Shown here piece after piece: positions 6,707-20,718 of a stretch of 26,974 nt of DNA. A program made the position numbers and the translations under genes. The stretch covers positions 1 through 26,974 of IMG/VR virus record IMGVR_UViG_3300044858_001994, one strand, 5' to 3'. Under the pieces are notes generated by a model that was given only the letters and a program-made list of their open reading frames with translations, made no database searches and had not been told where the DNA came from. This DNA comes from a virus. The number at the start of each line of letters is the position of its first letter. Position 1 is the first letter of the stretch.

Positions 6707-6740
6707 TTTACCGTTCATCATTTTATTTTACCGTTCGTCA
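6707..6740 (+). promoter_or_regulatory. Paired operator boxes (copy A), 20-bp spacing
   Basis: Two 14-bp boxes, TTTACCGTTCATCA (6707-6720) and TTTACCGTTCGTCA (6727-6740), differ at one base and are exactly 20 bp apart, about two helix turns. The first is identical to a box at 17640-17653, also one of a 20-bp pair upstream of a promoter. They lie just upstream of the -33 element at 6748, as expected for an activator or repressor site. The binding protein is unknown. Confidence 0.7.
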
Positions 6741-6747
6741 CTTTTTA

Positions 6748-6779
6748 TTTGGTTGCTATGTGCAAAACCTGTATATTTG
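6748..6779 (+). promoter_or_regulatory. Bacteroidota-type promoter A
   Basis: -33 element TTTG (6748-6751), 20-bp spacer, -7 element TATATTTG (6772-6779), matching the Bacteroidota consensus TTG-(17-23)-TAnnTTTG. The spacer includes AAAACCTGT (6764-6772), shared with promoter B. Transcription should begin near 6786, leaving a leader of about 35 bases before ATG 6822. Confidence 0.75.
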
Positions 6780-6821
6780 TTGTATAATAGTTCTTTATTT
6801 ATTATTTCAAAAAACAACACA

Positions 6822-7010
6822 ATGCAAAACGCAACAACGACTTTCAAAGAAGTCAAAAAACTTTGGAACGCACAACCATTCCTTGAAAAACTTTTATTCT
6901 TAATGAATAAACTTAAAATTTCACAGGAAGAAGCTGAAAGGTTGTCAAAATTAGAATTTGATAAAATGGCAATAGCCTATAAATATCAAATTTACTTATT
7001 CTTAAATTAA
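6822..7010 (+). CDS. Small hypothetical protein, first gene after promoter A
   Basis: 62 aa from ATG 6822, the first start after the promoter; the frame's 5' extension to 6753 would run through the promoter and is rejected. The protein (MQNATTTFKEVKKLWN...) is mostly helical, with a hydrophobic stretch LEKLLFLMNKL and a possible helix-turn-helix-like stretch ISQEEAERLSKLEFDKMA, not strong enough to call. Its N-terminus MxNAT matches that of the first gene after promoter B (MKNAT). Being promoter-proximal, it may be made early and in quantity. Function unknown. Confidence 0.65.
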   Translation: MQNATTTFKEVKKLWNAQPFLEKLLFLMNKLKISQEEAERLSKLEFDKMAIAYKYQIYLFLN

Positions 7011-7018
7011 AAAAAAAT

Positions 7019-7041
7019 CAGGGGTGCGACTGTAACGCACA
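7019..7041 (+). repeat. Hairpin repeat, copy A
   Basis: CAGGGGTGCGACTGT followed by AACGCACA. The arms GTGCG (7024-7028) and CGCAC (7036-7040) form a 5-bp stem with a 7-base loop. The same sequence, with two extra loop bases, recurs at 18045-18069. Here it ends 8 bases before ATG 7049, so it could control translation or mRNA processing of the next gene. Confidence 0.65.
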
Positions 7042-7048
7042 AATTTTT

Positions 7049-7237
7049 ATGAATACAGAAACACAAACAACAATAAGCCAACGTGCGGCGGATTATGCCG
7101 GTACTTTGGGATTCAGTCGCGGTTCTTTAACTTTAATTTTACAATATGTAAAAGAAAACAACATTGAACGTATTGAAGAACTTGCGCATTCAGCTTTAGA
7201 AGAAATTGAAAACGTATTTATTAAACACCAATTATGA
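7049..7237 (+). CDS. Small hypothetical protein (62 aa)
   Basis: Starts MNTETQTTISQRAADYAGTL and continues as a helical, acidic protein (YVKENNIERIEELAHSALEEIENVF). No membrane segment or cysteine motif. Its start lies 8 bases after the hairpin repeat, and its last codon overlaps the next ATG by 4 bases, a translational coupling pattern. It begins the run of small genes that lead to the ERF recombinase. Confidence 0.6.
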   Translation: MNTETQTTISQRAADYAGTLGFSRGSLTLILQYVKENNIERIEELAHSALEEIENVFIKHQL

Positions 7238-15634: not shown

Positions 15635-15872
15635 AATTTATTTGGATTACTTTGGGTACGGAATTGAAGATTTTATTCCGTGTGAAGTATGCGGACAAAA
15701 AGCGGTTGACATTCACCATATTGAAGCAAGGGGAATGGGCGGAACAAAAGAAAAGGACAGGATTGAAAATTTAATGGCGCTTTGTCGATATTGTCACGTC
15801 GTTATGGGGGACACAAAAACACATTTGGAATATTTAAAAGATAAGCATAAAGAAAAATTAAAATATAGTTAG
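15618..15872 (+). CDS. HNH endonuclease
   Basis: 84 aa from ATG 15618; the frame extends to a TTG at 15591, but the ATG gives a normal N-terminus (MKNYTKIYLDYFGYG). The nuclease core is complete: CEVCG zinc knuckle, VDIHHIEARGMGG with the paired His, RIENLMALCRYCHVVM with the Asn and second Cys pair and final His. HNH proteins next to terminase often take part in DNA packaging or cos cutting; they can also be homing enzymes. The gene's last two codons overlap the 5' arm of the tRNA-like gene. Confidence 0.85.
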   Translation: MKNYTKIYLDYFGYGIEDFIPCEVCGQKAVDIHHIEARGMGGTKEKDRIENLMALCRYCHVVMGDTKTHLEYLKDKHKEKLKYS

Positions 15873-15937
15873 TTAGTGTAATGGTAGCACACCCCTTTGA
15901 AACGGGGGGAAGTCAATGTTCAAATCATTACTAACTT
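15867..15937 (+). tRNA. tRNA-like gene, anticodon GAA (Phe) by my folding
   Basis: Acceptor AGTTAGT (15867-15873) pairs with ACTAACT (15930-15936). T8 and A9 are followed by a D arm GTG/CAC with GG in the loop. The anticodon arm is CCCCT/GGGGG with loop TTGAAAC, giving GAA at 15899-15901 after T33. The T arm is AATG/CATT with a normal TTCAAAT loop. The T stem has only 4 bp, as if one base were deleted, and no CCA is encoded. The D arm resembles that of Gln tRNAs. It may be functional or decaying. Confidence 0.6.
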
Positions 15938-16471: not shown

Positions 16472-17623
16472 ATGCGCATTGAATTACCAACGCCACACCT
16501 AAACCAAAAAAAGATATTGGACGCTGAAAAGCGTTTTATCGTTATTATGTGCGGTCGTCGTTTTGGGAAGTCTGAATTGTCGCAAATACTTATAATCAAA
16601 GAAGCATTAAAAGGCGGGAATGTTGCATACATAACACCGACATACGGATTGGCGCAAGTATTTTTTGAACGTCTTACAAAAGTATTACCATTTAAAAGCA
16701 ATATTTCAAAGCTGAAAATCTATTGTCCCAACGAAGGGTCAATTGAATTTTTTACCGGCGAACGATTGGACAACTTGCGCGGTCGTAAATTCCATTTGGT
16801 TATTATTGACGAAGCTGCATTTATTGCGGATTTAGAAGACGGTTGGAATAATAGCATACGCCCGACGCTGACCGACTATGAAGGGAAGGCGGTTTTTCTG
16901 TCAACACCACGCGGCAAAAACTTCTTTTATTCCCTGTTTATGAAAATGGGCGAAAACGATTGGCAAAGCTTTAAATTTAGTACATACGACAACCCGCACA
17001 TTAACCCGCGCGAAATAGACGAAGCACGAATTCAATTACCTGAAGTTGTATTTGAACAGGAATATATGGCGAACCCGTCCGAGAATAGCGCAAACCCTTT
17101 TGGCAACGCATTCATTAAACGCTGCGTCAAACCTATTTCAGCGCAACCAATTGTTTGTTATGGCATTGACCTTGCAAAGTCTGTGGATTTTACAGTTATA
17201 ATTGGATTGGATAAGGACGGCAACGTGGCGTATTTTGACCGCTTTCAAATGGATTGGCATAATACCAAAGAAACAATTAAAAGGTTGCCACCTGCGCCAA
17301 TTGTGGTGGATTCATCAGGGGTTGGCGACCCGATATTAGAAGACTTGCTTCGTGAAGGTTTAAACATTGAAGGTTTGAAGTTTACAAGTCAATCAAAGCA
17401 ACAATTAATGGAAGGTTTGGCTTCAGCAATCCAACAGGGACGAATTGGATTCCCTGAAGGTGTTATTGTTGACGAATTAGACGTTTTTGAATATCAATTT
17501 ACTTCGCACGGCGTAAGATATTCAGCGCCTTCAGGATTTCACGACGATACCGTAATGGCTTTGGCTTTAGCGTGGCAAAACCACAATATCAAACGCGGTT
17601 CAGGGCGTTACGCCTTCGCTTAA
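16472..17623 (+). CDS. terL: Terminase large subunit (packaging ATPase/nuclease)
   Basis: 383 aa with the full TerL layout. ATPase: Walker A CGRRFGKS (G28-S34), Walker B LVIIDEA (D113, E114), coupling motif LSTPRG (S144-G148). C-terminal RNase H-like nuclease: GIDLAKSVDFT (D233), IVVDSSGVGD (D278) and GFHDDTVMAL (D356, D357). It cuts concatemeric DNA and pumps it into the prohead through the portal. It follows the small subunit directly. The stop codon lies inside the first operator box of copy B, so the downstream genes belong to a separately controlled transcript. Confidence 0.95.
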   Translation: MRIELPTPHLNQKKILDAEKRFIVIMCGRRFGKSELSQILIIKEALKGGNVAYITPTYGLAQVFFERLTKVLPFKSNISKLKIYCPNEGSIEFFTGERLDNLRGRKFHLVIIDEAAFIADLEDGWNNSIRPTLTDYEGKAVFLSTPRGKNFFYSLFMKMGENDWQSFKFSTYDNPHINPREIDEARIQLPEVVFEQEYMANPSENSANPFGNAFIKRCVKPISAQPIVCYGIDLAKSVDFTVIIGLDKDGNVAYFDRFQMDWHNTKETIKRLPPAPIVVDSSGVGDPILEDLLREGLNIEGLKFTSQSKQQLMEGLASAIQQGRIGFPEGVIVDELDVFEYQFTSHGVRYSAPSGFHDDTVMALALAWQNHNIKRGSGRYAFA

Positions 17624-17653
17624 CCGTTTATCCTTATTATTTACCGTTCATCA
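17620..17653 (+). promoter_or_regulatory. Paired operator boxes (copy B), 20-bp spacing
   Basis: TTAACCGTTTATCC (17620-17633, overlapping the terL stop) and TTTACCGTTCATCA (17640-17653); the ACCGTT cores are 20 bp apart. The second box is identical to the first box of copy A. Relative to the -33 TTTG the cores lie 38 and 58 bp upstream here, and 18 and 38 bp upstream in copy A, so all fall on one 20-bp lattice. Confidence 0.7.
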
Positions 17654-17680: not shown

Positions 17681-17713
17681 TTTGGAAGGTGTATAAAACC
17701 TGTGTTATATTTG
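17681..17713 (+). promoter_or_regulatory. Bacteroidota-type promoter B
   Basis: -33 TTTG (17681-17684), 21-bp spacer, -7 TATATTTG (17706-17713). AAAACCTGT (17695-17703) in the spacer is shared with promoter A. Transcription should start near 17720, with about 17 bases of leader before ATG 17737. Confidence 0.75.
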
Positions 17714-17736
17714 TGGAAACAATAAAACAAAAGGAA

Positions 17737-18033
17737 ATGAAAAATGCAACCTTATCTTTAAATTGGAATGTAAATAAGCTTTCTGAAATTTTAGAATCAA
17801 AAGGCTTTGACTTGTATTTATCAACAAAATCATTGAAGCACGAAGAACGTAATATTGTACACGATATTTATACCTGTACGAATGGTAAGTTTGACGGCGA
17901 AGTTGTTGACGTACATTATAACTTTGAAACAGGTTTAATTCACGACGTGGCAACTTCTTCACAAAGACATACAGAAGACGGCGGAAGTTATGAAACAACG
18001 CCTAAAATTATTAATTATTTTAATACATTATAA
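17737..18033 (+). CDS. Hypothetical protein, first gene after promoter B
   Basis: 98 aa from ATG 17737; the frame's extension to 17572 runs through the promoter and terL and is rejected. It starts MKNATLSLNW, then SEILESKGFDLYLSTKSLK, and a C-terminal beta-rich half (GEVVDVHYNFETGLIHDVAT) with an acidic/His end. No domain recognised. Its place right after a strong promoter and before the second hairpin repeat mirrors the gene at 6822. Confidence 0.65.
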   Translation: MKNATLSLNWNVNKLSEILESKGFDLYLSTKSLKHEERNIVHDIYTCTNGKFDGEVVDVHYNFETGLIHDVATSSQRHTEDGGSYETTPKIINYFNTL

Positions 18034-18038
18034 CCTAT

Positions 18039-18069
18039 CCCCCGCAGGGGTGCGACTGTCCAACGCACA
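18039..18069 (+). repeat. Hairpin repeat, copy B
   Basis: CCCC (18040-18043) can pair with GGGG (18047-18050). GTGCG (18050-18054) pairs with CGCAC (18064-18068) around a 9-base loop. Positions 18045-18069 match 7019-7041 except for two extra loop bases (CC). It ends 16 bases before ATG 18085 and follows the stop of the promoter-proximal gene. Confidence 0.65.
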
Positions 18070-18084
18070 TTTAAAACTTATACA

Positions 18085-18237
18085 ATGCAAAACAGACTAA
18101 AAACACAACAGGACAAATTAAACGAACATTATGCAGCAATGCAAAAGCAATACGCCAAAGAATCTTTGGGTATGGGTTGGTTTTTTGCGATTATTACGGT
18201 AGCTTTATTGTTAACGGCTTTAATTGAAAACTTATAA
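18085..18237 (+). CDS. Small tail-anchored membrane protein (50 aa)
   Basis: MQNRLKTQQDKLNEHYAAMQ forms a charged helix of about 30 residues, followed by one membrane span (WFFAIITVALLLTALI) and a two- to three-residue tail. It begins 16 bases after the hairpin repeat and ends one base before the next ATG. The layout suggests an inner-membrane protein facing the cytoplasm. Function unknown. Confidence 0.65.
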   Translation: MQNRLKTQQDKLNEHYAAMQKQYAKESLGMGWFFAIITVALLLTALIENL

Positions 18238-19892: not shown

Positions 19893-19927
19893 GGCAGTTG
19901 TGTTTTTTATTGAAATAAGCGAAATTA

Positions 19928-19953
19928 CCCTGTGTTTTTACACGGGGTTTTTT
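19928..19953 (+). terminator. Intrinsic terminator
   Basis: CCCTGTGT (19928-19935), loop TTTT, ACACGGGG (19940-19947): 8 bp with one G-T pair, followed by TTTTTT (19948-19953). It ends transcription after the chaperone genes and before the tail structural genes; no promoter was recognised between it and 19990, so read-through is likely. Confidence 0.8.
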
Positions 19954-19989
19954 CTGTGGTATTTAGAACCGATTTATCTATTTAAGGTT

Positions 19990-20718
19990 ATGAGTGAAGC
20001 CAAAGCACAGGCAAAAGCATTAAGGGAAGGTTTTTTAAAAACAATCGGTGAACAATACAACGTTATTGACCCGACTGAATTCCCTATTGCCGAACAGATG
20101 CTTATTTTCTACGGTAAACAATTTAACGACGAAGTACAAAAGAACCTGACCAAAAGCGGTTCAATTGCTTCAGGCAAAATTGGCGATTTGGTTGTACCAA
20201 AGGTCACAAAGTTTGGCAATGATTACGAAATGTGGTTGGGTTATGACAAAGACAACCCGGCTGCGGTTTATTATGATTTTGTAAATAAGGGGGTTCGTGG
20301 CGCGGGTGGCAAAAATGCAAAGCCTAAAAAAGTTGCTTCAGATTCACCATATAAATACAAAACTGCGTACCCAAATAAAAAAATGGCAACGTCAATTTTG
20401 CAATGGTACAGATTAGGCAAGGCAAAGAGTATAAACGAAACACAGACAAAGAAGTTAAGCAAGACACAAAGAAAAAGCAAAAAGCTTAAACAAGCGGTCA
20501 ATAAAACGGCTTCATTAAAAACTTTAGCATACGCAACCGCTTCAGCAATAAAAAGGGACGGTTTACGTACAACTTCATATTTTGATAACGCAGTTAAAAC
20601 AGTATTTAATAAGGAATTTTTTACGACAATGGCAGAAGCTTTTGGTGGCGACGTTGCTTTACAAATTAGACAAATTGGAAATAAAATAGAATCAAACAAT
20701 GGCAATAACAATAAATAG
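19990..20718 (+). CDS. Putative tail/virion morphogenesis protein
   Basis: 242 aa from ATG 19990; the longer frame to 19855 crosses the terminator and is rejected. The N-terminal half has FGNDYEMWLGYDKDNPAAVYYDFVNKG-like beta/alpha pattern seen in minor tail or neck proteins. Residues about 145-175 are very basic (KKLSKTQRKSKKLKQAVNKT). The C-terminal TSYFDNAVKTVFNKEFFTTM resembles the end of gp10/virion-morphogenesis proteins. The next gene starts 20 bases before its stop. The structural role is inferred from position and the xxYxDFVNKGVRG pattern. Confidence 0.5.
   Translation: MSEAKAQAKALREGFLKTIGEQYNVIDPTEFPIAEQMLIFYGKQFNDEVQKNLTKSGSIASGKIGDLVVPKVTKFGNDYEMWLGYDKDNPAAVYYDFVNKGVRGAGGKNAKPKKVASDSPYKYKTAYPNKKMATSILQWYRLGKAKSINETQTKKLSKTQRKSKKLKQAVNKTASLKTLAYATASAIKRDGLRTTSYFDNAVKTVFNKEFFTTMAEAFGGDVALQIRQIGNKIESNNGNNNK

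Follow-up and report, generated by a model that had tools for sequence, protein, structure and literature searches.

Here, we identify a near-identical 26-letter RNA pseudoknot that is spread over hundreds of unrelated bacterial viruses and is nearly absent from bacterial genomes. Judged from comparisons among related phages, the element marks the border between an exchangeable plug-in first gene and the operon to which this gene is added: the element tracks the presence of the first gene, first genes are swapped freely, and the version of the element tends to stay with the downstream site. We tentatively suggest that it functions as an RNA insulator that would uncouple the first gene from the operon, most likely as a boundary for mRNA decay or processing.

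Results

Two copies of the element in two transcription units

The window, i.e., the whole stretch of 26,974 nucleotides analyzed here, which comes from an IMG/VR virus record, contains two copies of the element on the plus strand (7018..7041 and 18044..18069), both supported by covariation and cmsearch. A preliminary description had reported a duplicated hairpin, and the motif is indeed present twice, as CAGGGGTGCGACTGTAACGCACA (7019-7041) and CAGGGGTGCGACTGTCCAACGCACA (18045-18069), with the 5-bp stem GTGCG/CGCAC kept in both copies and loops of 7 versus 9 nt. Window-wide, the exact nonamer GTGCGACTG occurs only at the two copies, and the covariance model of the family returns only two significant sites, with E-values of 2.2e-7 and 2.7e-6 for cores that were both in the training set.

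As also described before, both copies lie 3′ of the first gene behind a twin-box promoter, and the next ATG follows after 7 and 15 nt, respectively. The promoter boxes have the pattern ACCGTT(C/T)(A/G)TC, present twice at a distance of 20 nt (exact or one-mismatch matches): ACCGTTCATC and ACCGTTCGTC in unit 1 (6710..6739, plus strand; box starts 6710 and 6730) and ACCGTTTATC and ACCGTTCATC in unit 2 (17623..17652, plus strand; box starts 17623 and 17643). Downstream of the boxes lies TATATTTG (plus strand, 6772..6779 in unit 1, where relatives conserve it at the same place, and 17706..17713 in unit 2, also conserved in relatives), which we take to be a −7 element of the Bacteroidota type with the consensus TAnnTTTG. 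Unit 1 runs from a promoter near 6780 through genes for an Erf-like annealing protein, a replication initiator-like protein, and a glycosyltransferase to the terminase gene. Its first gene (6822..7010, plus strand; 62 aa) matches no known family and is exchangeable or optional, being absent in relatives without the element, while its second gene (7049..7237, plus strand; 62 aa) lies directly 3′ of the promoter in most relatives. Unit 2 starts near 17720 and includes structural genes, among them that for the tape measure protein. Here, the first gene (17737..18033, plus strand; 98 aa) also matches no known family, and the second gene (18085..18237, plus strand; 50 aa, MQNRLKT...) is the anchor gene of the slot, based on relatives at this site.

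Unit 1 also contains a tRNA gene (15867-15937; Rfam tRNA, 50.6 bits). The IMG/VR contigs 3300043436_001856 (63 kb) and 3300002835_000289 (50 kb) each carry the same gene region twice, with the related copies ∼31-33 kb apart. This spacing suggests genomes of ∼31-33 kb, in which case the 27-kb window may be incomplete.

The element folds as an H-type pseudoknot

The preliminary description took the element for a simple hairpin. Because the 5′-flanking bases of the stem form pairs with the loop, the fold is instead an H-type pseudoknot of 24-31 nt with the consensus N3G-GG-GYGCG-(C)A-YN3'-N0-7-AA-CGCRC-A, in which the leading (G/U)CAG forms the knot helix with CUG(U) of the loop. In copy 1, helix S1 pairs 7019-7021 with 7030-7032 (CAG/CUG), loop L1 is GG (7022-7023), helix S2 pairs 7024-7028 with 7036-7040 (GUGCG/CGCAC), and A7029, AA 7034-7035, and A7041 are unpaired. 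In copy 2, S1 pairs 18044-18047 with 18056-18059 (GCAG/CUGU), L1 spans 18048-18049, S2 pairs 18050-18054 with 18064-18068, and A18055, AA 18062-18063, and A18069 are unpaired.

Several lines of evidence support this fold. First, the bases before GGGG change together with those in the loop, e.g., CAG/CTG, CGAG/CTCG, CAAG/CTTG, ATAG/CTAT, and CCGG/CCGG. Second, in a set of 352 places, in which some variants stem from scans that left out the common base at one of the two positions or at both, with the partner free to match or not, the first such knot pair is C-G 228 times, G-C 69 times, A-T 32 times, T-A 18 times, and T-G 3 times and is unpaired twice; in the same set, stem pair 2 is T-A at 188 places, C-G at 163, and A-T at one. 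Knot pair 2 occurs as C-G, G-C, A-U, and U-A and stem pair 2 as U-A, C-G, and A-U. Third, 48 distinct cores show covariation at the knot pairs and at stem pair 2, with pairing in 98.4% of the cells, and the covariation score is 0.385 compared to 0.107 after shuffling and at most 0.060 for slid structures. Variants of stem pair 3 were found in 15 stretches, which is near chance by a rough estimate, and we therefore take this pair as invariant. Among the unpaired bases, loop 1 (GG), the AA that precedes the second strand, and the A that follows this strand are invariant. In a second type of core, CAU replaces the junction AC and the pairing is retained.

Helix S2 alone contributes only about −5 to −6 kcal/mol and helix S1 is weak; the element is therefore no brute thermodynamic barrier. 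Rather, the strict, near-invariant sequence points to recognition by a specific partner over brute stability, and such recognition would also fit RNA polymerase, S1/30S, or a ligand. The strict conservation of the L1 GG, the junction A, and the 3′ AA/A, together with the position between the first gene and the operon, would also be compatible with a self-cleaving ribozyme or an RNase processing site at which the polycistronic RNA is cut between the two, and the phage context near tRNAs resembles that of theta ribozymes (PMC10879173). However, most of the conserved bases are paired, and no Rfam ribozyme matches the element. At only 26 nt, it is also below the size of known self-cleaving ribozymes, of which, to our knowledge, none is this short. 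We regard cleavage of this kind as highly improbable.

In some loci, additional structures lie next to the knot. Just upstream of the CAU-type cores (L254, L256, L308, L319, L367, and L368), there is a conserved hairpin, CCGGCAGC-CTGTT-GCTGCTGG-GGACTC, and because of this hairpin, a larger RNA may include the knot in those loci. In a GC-rich phage clade (L258, L252, L256, L288, and L353), the stop codon and the element are separated by another, distinct H-type pseudoknot, such as CGCC-C-GGATGG-GGCG-AATA-CCATCC, and/or by a hairpin whose loop resembles GAGGAAUAC, adding 25-60 structured bases before the knot; the pairs of these upstream structures appear to covary.

The element is spread over phages and nearly absent from cellular genomes

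The preliminary description had tied its reading to conservation in relatives, and the element is clearly conserved there. In IMG/VR, a scan for the exact core yielded at least 119 stretches and two disjoint scans for variants at least 120 each, giving at least 359 places altogether. By contrast, of 84,980 species genomes, only 4 contain the exact core, and among 396 Bacteroidota genomes, the covariance model was positive in a single one, which is the seed itself. Named carriers, with one to four copies each, are a Microviridae sp. of 5.8 kb, the Escherichia coli phages phAPEC8 and phi92, Microbacterium phage Pumpernickel, the Corynebacterium phages PSonyx, BFK20, and phi674, and the Bclasvirinae mycobacteriophages LilMcDreamy and Godines; the Corynebacterium glutamicum plasmid pCGR1 carries the element as well. 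Partial BLAST hits in Pseudomonas N4-like phages, in Gordonia capsid genes, and the like lie mostly in coding genes or lack the full fold; these were taken as chance matches and not counted. The copy number among near-relative phages of 28-34 kb ranges from zero to two, and the element is therefore dispensable for the phage.

Plasmid pCGR1 of C. glutamicum R has two copies (L389, 401 and 3482), one of which lies ∼10 nt 3′ of the promoter-like sequence TTGCAT-N17-TAACAT. This plasmid may be phage-derived.

At gathering score, Rfam 15 recognizes only the tRNA in the window, and around copy 1, matches with E-values up to 10 are at chance level. Similarly, ten other loci gave tRNA only, and the extended GC-rich form gave no match. 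A search of open-access PMC full text for the letters of the motif returned no relevant paper. Thus, as far as these tools see, the RNA class is new within Rfam 15 and open-access PMC text, and its function may still turn out to be a familiar one. Relatives could be present in a catalogue of candidate structured RNAs from human microbiomes (PMC8040213).

The element follows the stop codon of first genes

The element has the sense orientation and follows the first cistron, mostly 4-10 nt after its stop codon when one place per upstream gene cluster is counted. These gaps fall into all three phases (40/29/50). A readthrough or frameshift pseudoknot was rejected because of this absence of a frame preference; in addition, one place precedes a tRNA. 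The upstream gene is usually the first of its transcription unit: at 40% of the places, a gap of at least 80 nt precedes the first upstream gene, compared to 10%, 7%, and 5% with the second, third, and fourth upstream gene, respectively. In addition, the 1 kb upstream is enriched in intrinsic terminators that belong to the preceding unit (0.18 for the 500 nt upstream compared to about 0.02 per 500 nt). In actinophages, some copies are located deeper inside operons.

The 15 nt after the knot are G-poor (5.5% G compared to 23% overall) and vary in sequence (ATTTAAAAC, CAACTCTCC, AATGCCC...). The preliminary description held that the element is no classical terminator, and we agree: the stem resembles a terminator weakly at most, the stretch 3′ of it varies without a uniform U run, and a gene of the same unit usually comes next. 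Other features can take the place of this gene. In Pumpernickel, a tRNA starts 2 nt 3′ of the knot; in L088 and L089, a new twin-box promoter lies directly 3′ of the element; and in phAPEC8, a terminator lies 54 nt beyond it. The copies in L088 (11135) and L089 (712 and 1165, minus strand) form tandem cassettes of gene plus element, with the next twin-box promoter right behind the first element. In the rv5-like E. coli phages phAPEC8 and phi92 (L127, 2501; L391, 3001), the element follows a large tRNA cluster in place of a clear ORF.

The flanking genes fall into 149 upstream and 122 downstream clusters that are unrelated and have no gene in common. This diversity bears on a riboswitch or a phage-protein operator that would control the operon; the preliminary description had raised an RNA operator. 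Compact ligand-binding pseudoknots such as preQ1-I and guanidine-III exist, and they would provide a precedent. So would the operator pseudoknot in the T4 gene 32 mRNA (PMC3014915). However, the lack of any common gene among the flanking clusters and the presence of the element in a 5.8-kb microvirus make a protein operator unlikely, and a riboswitch would also have to be reconciled with the near absence from cellular genomes. Gene-specific control was rejected on the gene diversity, there being no association with a single pathway and nearly no presence in host genomes; the chance that we leave to a riboswitch or operator is very remote.

The element tracks an exchangeable first gene

Relatives were gathered via the genes standing behind each window copy. 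At both sites together, 40 distinct loci have a first gene with the element, two have a first gene without it, 26 have neither, and none has the element without a first gene. Thus, the element is present in 40 of 42 loci with an extra first gene and absent from all 26 loci in which the operon abuts the promoter, an association with p about 1e-16 that is overstated because the loci are related. Among 18 more site 2 loci without a called promoter, 13 have the element and five do not. At site 1, the 62-aa gene at 7049 abuts the promoter in loci without the element and follows a first gene in loci with it; the twin boxes lie directly 5′ of the promoter in relatives of both kinds. The 50-aa gene at 18085 behaves in the same way at site 2. 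Where the first gene is missing from a relative, the same second gene starts 25-32 nt behind the promoter. A third site, in the GC-rich clade, is partly resolved, in that several loci without the element have the anchor gene 1-8 nt after another operon gene. The first genes are mutually unrelated, with 19 clusters at 36 places at site 2 and 15 clusters at 35 places at the third site, and most match no known family. The covariation, the recurrence at first junctions, and the presence only with an extra first gene fit the part of the preliminary description in which an RNA element separates the first gene from the rest.

Cores are identical in 38.6% of pairs with the same downstream and different upstream genes, in 21.1% of pairs with the same upstream and different downstream genes, and in 2.7% otherwise. 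Hence, the version of the element tends to stay with the downstream site more than with the upstream gene, and the idea that it moves as a fixed cassette with its gene is only partly true. One could imagine a border at the DNA level, attC-like or a homology anchor, at which first genes are exchanged and the fold acts as single-stranded DNA; units of gene plus element with many different cargos do appear and disappear between the promoter and the operon, and tandem cassettes are found in L088/L089. However, the 5′ border of the first genes has no matching sequence, no common recombinase is known, and the strict sense orientation behind stop codons fits an RNA. Integron attC sites in particular were rejected, as there is no conserved 5′ border and there are no arrays, with at most two elements in a row. 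We give a DNA border little credence.

That the element version follows the downstream gene would suit a pseudoknot that binds the ribosome (S1/30S) and thereby provides a separate translation start for the operon when a gene has been inserted in front of it. Ribosomal protein S1 binds H-type pseudoknots, as documented by SELEX, with nanomolar affinity, and for tmRNA, rpsO, and tisB (PMC7708055), and an internal start would be unneeded without a first gene, when the downstream gene starts 25-32 nt behind the promoter. Three observations speak against this possibility: the next feature is a tRNA in Pumpernickel and a promoter in L088/L089, the ATG follows some knots after only 5-8 nt, which places these knots within the 30S footprint, and later operon genes lack such an element. 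We find ribosome recruitment quite doubtful.

An internal terminator persists in relatives without the element

Unit 2 contains a strong internal intrinsic terminator (19927..19954, plus strand; also delimited as 19927-19948) 35-42 nt before the ATG at 19990 of a structural-module gene, and the space between the two is too short for a promoter. Relatives retain the terminator whether or not they have the element: it lies 42-45 nt before the corresponding ATG in all 63 relatives with at least 3 kb of upstream sequence and is formed by at least six unrelated stems (L393-L471).

Such a terminator would fit a put-like antiterminator or anti-pausing RNA, in which the nascent knot would bind RNA polymerase or block Rho and downstream termination would be resisted. 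In HK022, putL lies directly behind the promoter and putR ∼270 nt after the promoter start (PMC9378689); this anatomy is matched by the window copies, about 230 and 325 nt behind the promoter start, and by the pCGR1 copy, which a promoter-like sequence closely precedes. The near-identity across phyla would also be expected of an RNA with a conserved target such as RNA polymerase. On the other side, in 26 of the 63 relatives with the terminator, cmsearch detects no recognizable element within 5 kb, which implies that passing the terminator at 19927 does not require the element. For a strict antiterminator of this terminator, the prediction thus failed. Moreover, several relatives of 28-34 kb lack any element, loss of the first gene is always accompanied by loss of the element, and a single 26-nt knot contrasts with the ∼70 nt and two stem-loops of put (PMC9378689), an RNA that contacts the β′ zinc-binding domain directly. 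These comparisons weaken the case for antitermination, and the relatives may pass the terminator by other means; we consider an antitermination role, the chief competitor of the insulator reading, possible but rather unlikely.

Discussion

Because the element tracks the plug-in gene, is dispensable, is indifferent to the gene that follows, and has G-poor, probably unstructured flanks, we lean toward the RNA insulator, without regarding it as probable outright. We suggest that conserved host machinery would recognize, or be halted by, the knot, so that the fate of the plug-in gene's RNA would be uncoupled from that of the operon behind it. Endonucleolytic cuts might occur in the unstructured, G-poor stretch 3′ of the knot. 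The message of the first gene would then end at the knot, which would slow 3′-to-5′ decay, and the message of the operon would start anew downstream of it. Which host factor takes part, and in which direction the effect goes, are guesses. That the next feature can be a tRNA, a promoter, or a terminator favors an effect on the upstream message; in Pumpernickel, cleavage by RNase P at the tRNA would leave an upstream mRNA ending at the knot. Several findings, however, argue against a decay boundary. The low stability of S2 and a near-invariant sequence that also fits other partners are two of these; further, the element version follows the downstream site more than the upstream gene, the GC-rich clade has its extra structured bases before the knot, and the E. 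coli phage copies follow tRNA genes.

Like HK022 putL/putR, the nearest analogue in terms of function, the element is an untranslated phage cis-RNA of low copy number close behind a promoter that presumably acts on conserved host machinery; it differs in being a 26-nt pseudoknot and in that relatives without it keep the operon and the internal terminator. Like lambda nutR behind cro, it is an untranslated RNA site right after the stop codon of the first gene, but we see neither a boxA/boxB arrangement at the element nor a common phage protein. Among intercistronic mRNA stabilizers, REP hairpins of the malE-malF type likewise lie behind the stop codon of a promoter-proximal gene, and the element would similarly set the fate of messages apart; however, REP stabilizers are long GC hairpins, whereas the element is a weak, sequence-conserved, phage-specific pseudoknot spread over phyla. 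With viral xrRNAs, the element shares the idea of a small, tightly conserved, pseudoknotted roadblock, and one clade adds a second pseudoknot directly upstream; there is no sequence or Rfam match, though, and xrRNAs resist eukaryotic 5′-to-3′ exonucleases. The T4 gene 32 operator and the S1-binding pseudoknots of tmRNA, rpsO, tisB, and SELEX RNAs are also H-type and act in mRNA, a likeness of topology alone, and no gene is shared with them. Finally, integron cassettes also place an exchangeable gene behind a promoter and a structured element (attC) after its stop codon. The element described here differs from attC in lacking a matching 5′ border, in occurring once or twice instead of in arrays, in having no known recombinase, and in covarying in the RNA sense.

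Because the RNA is near-identical across the phages of several phyla and yet almost absent from cells, it must meet a conserved, probably central host machine. We consider it an evenly balanced proposition that the element is a cross-phylum phage RNA part that defines plug-in slots, in which a host component conserved among Bacteroidota, Actinomycetota, and Enterobacteria would let any new gene sit directly behind the operon promoter while the operon stays undisturbed, and the element would mark exchangeable accessory genes. The identity of the partner could expose a general control point of phages at the level of RNA polymerase, the ribosome, or RNA decay. The knot also provides a search handle that flags first-gene slots; these hold many small genes that match no known family and are a plausible source of early takeover or counter-defence genes.
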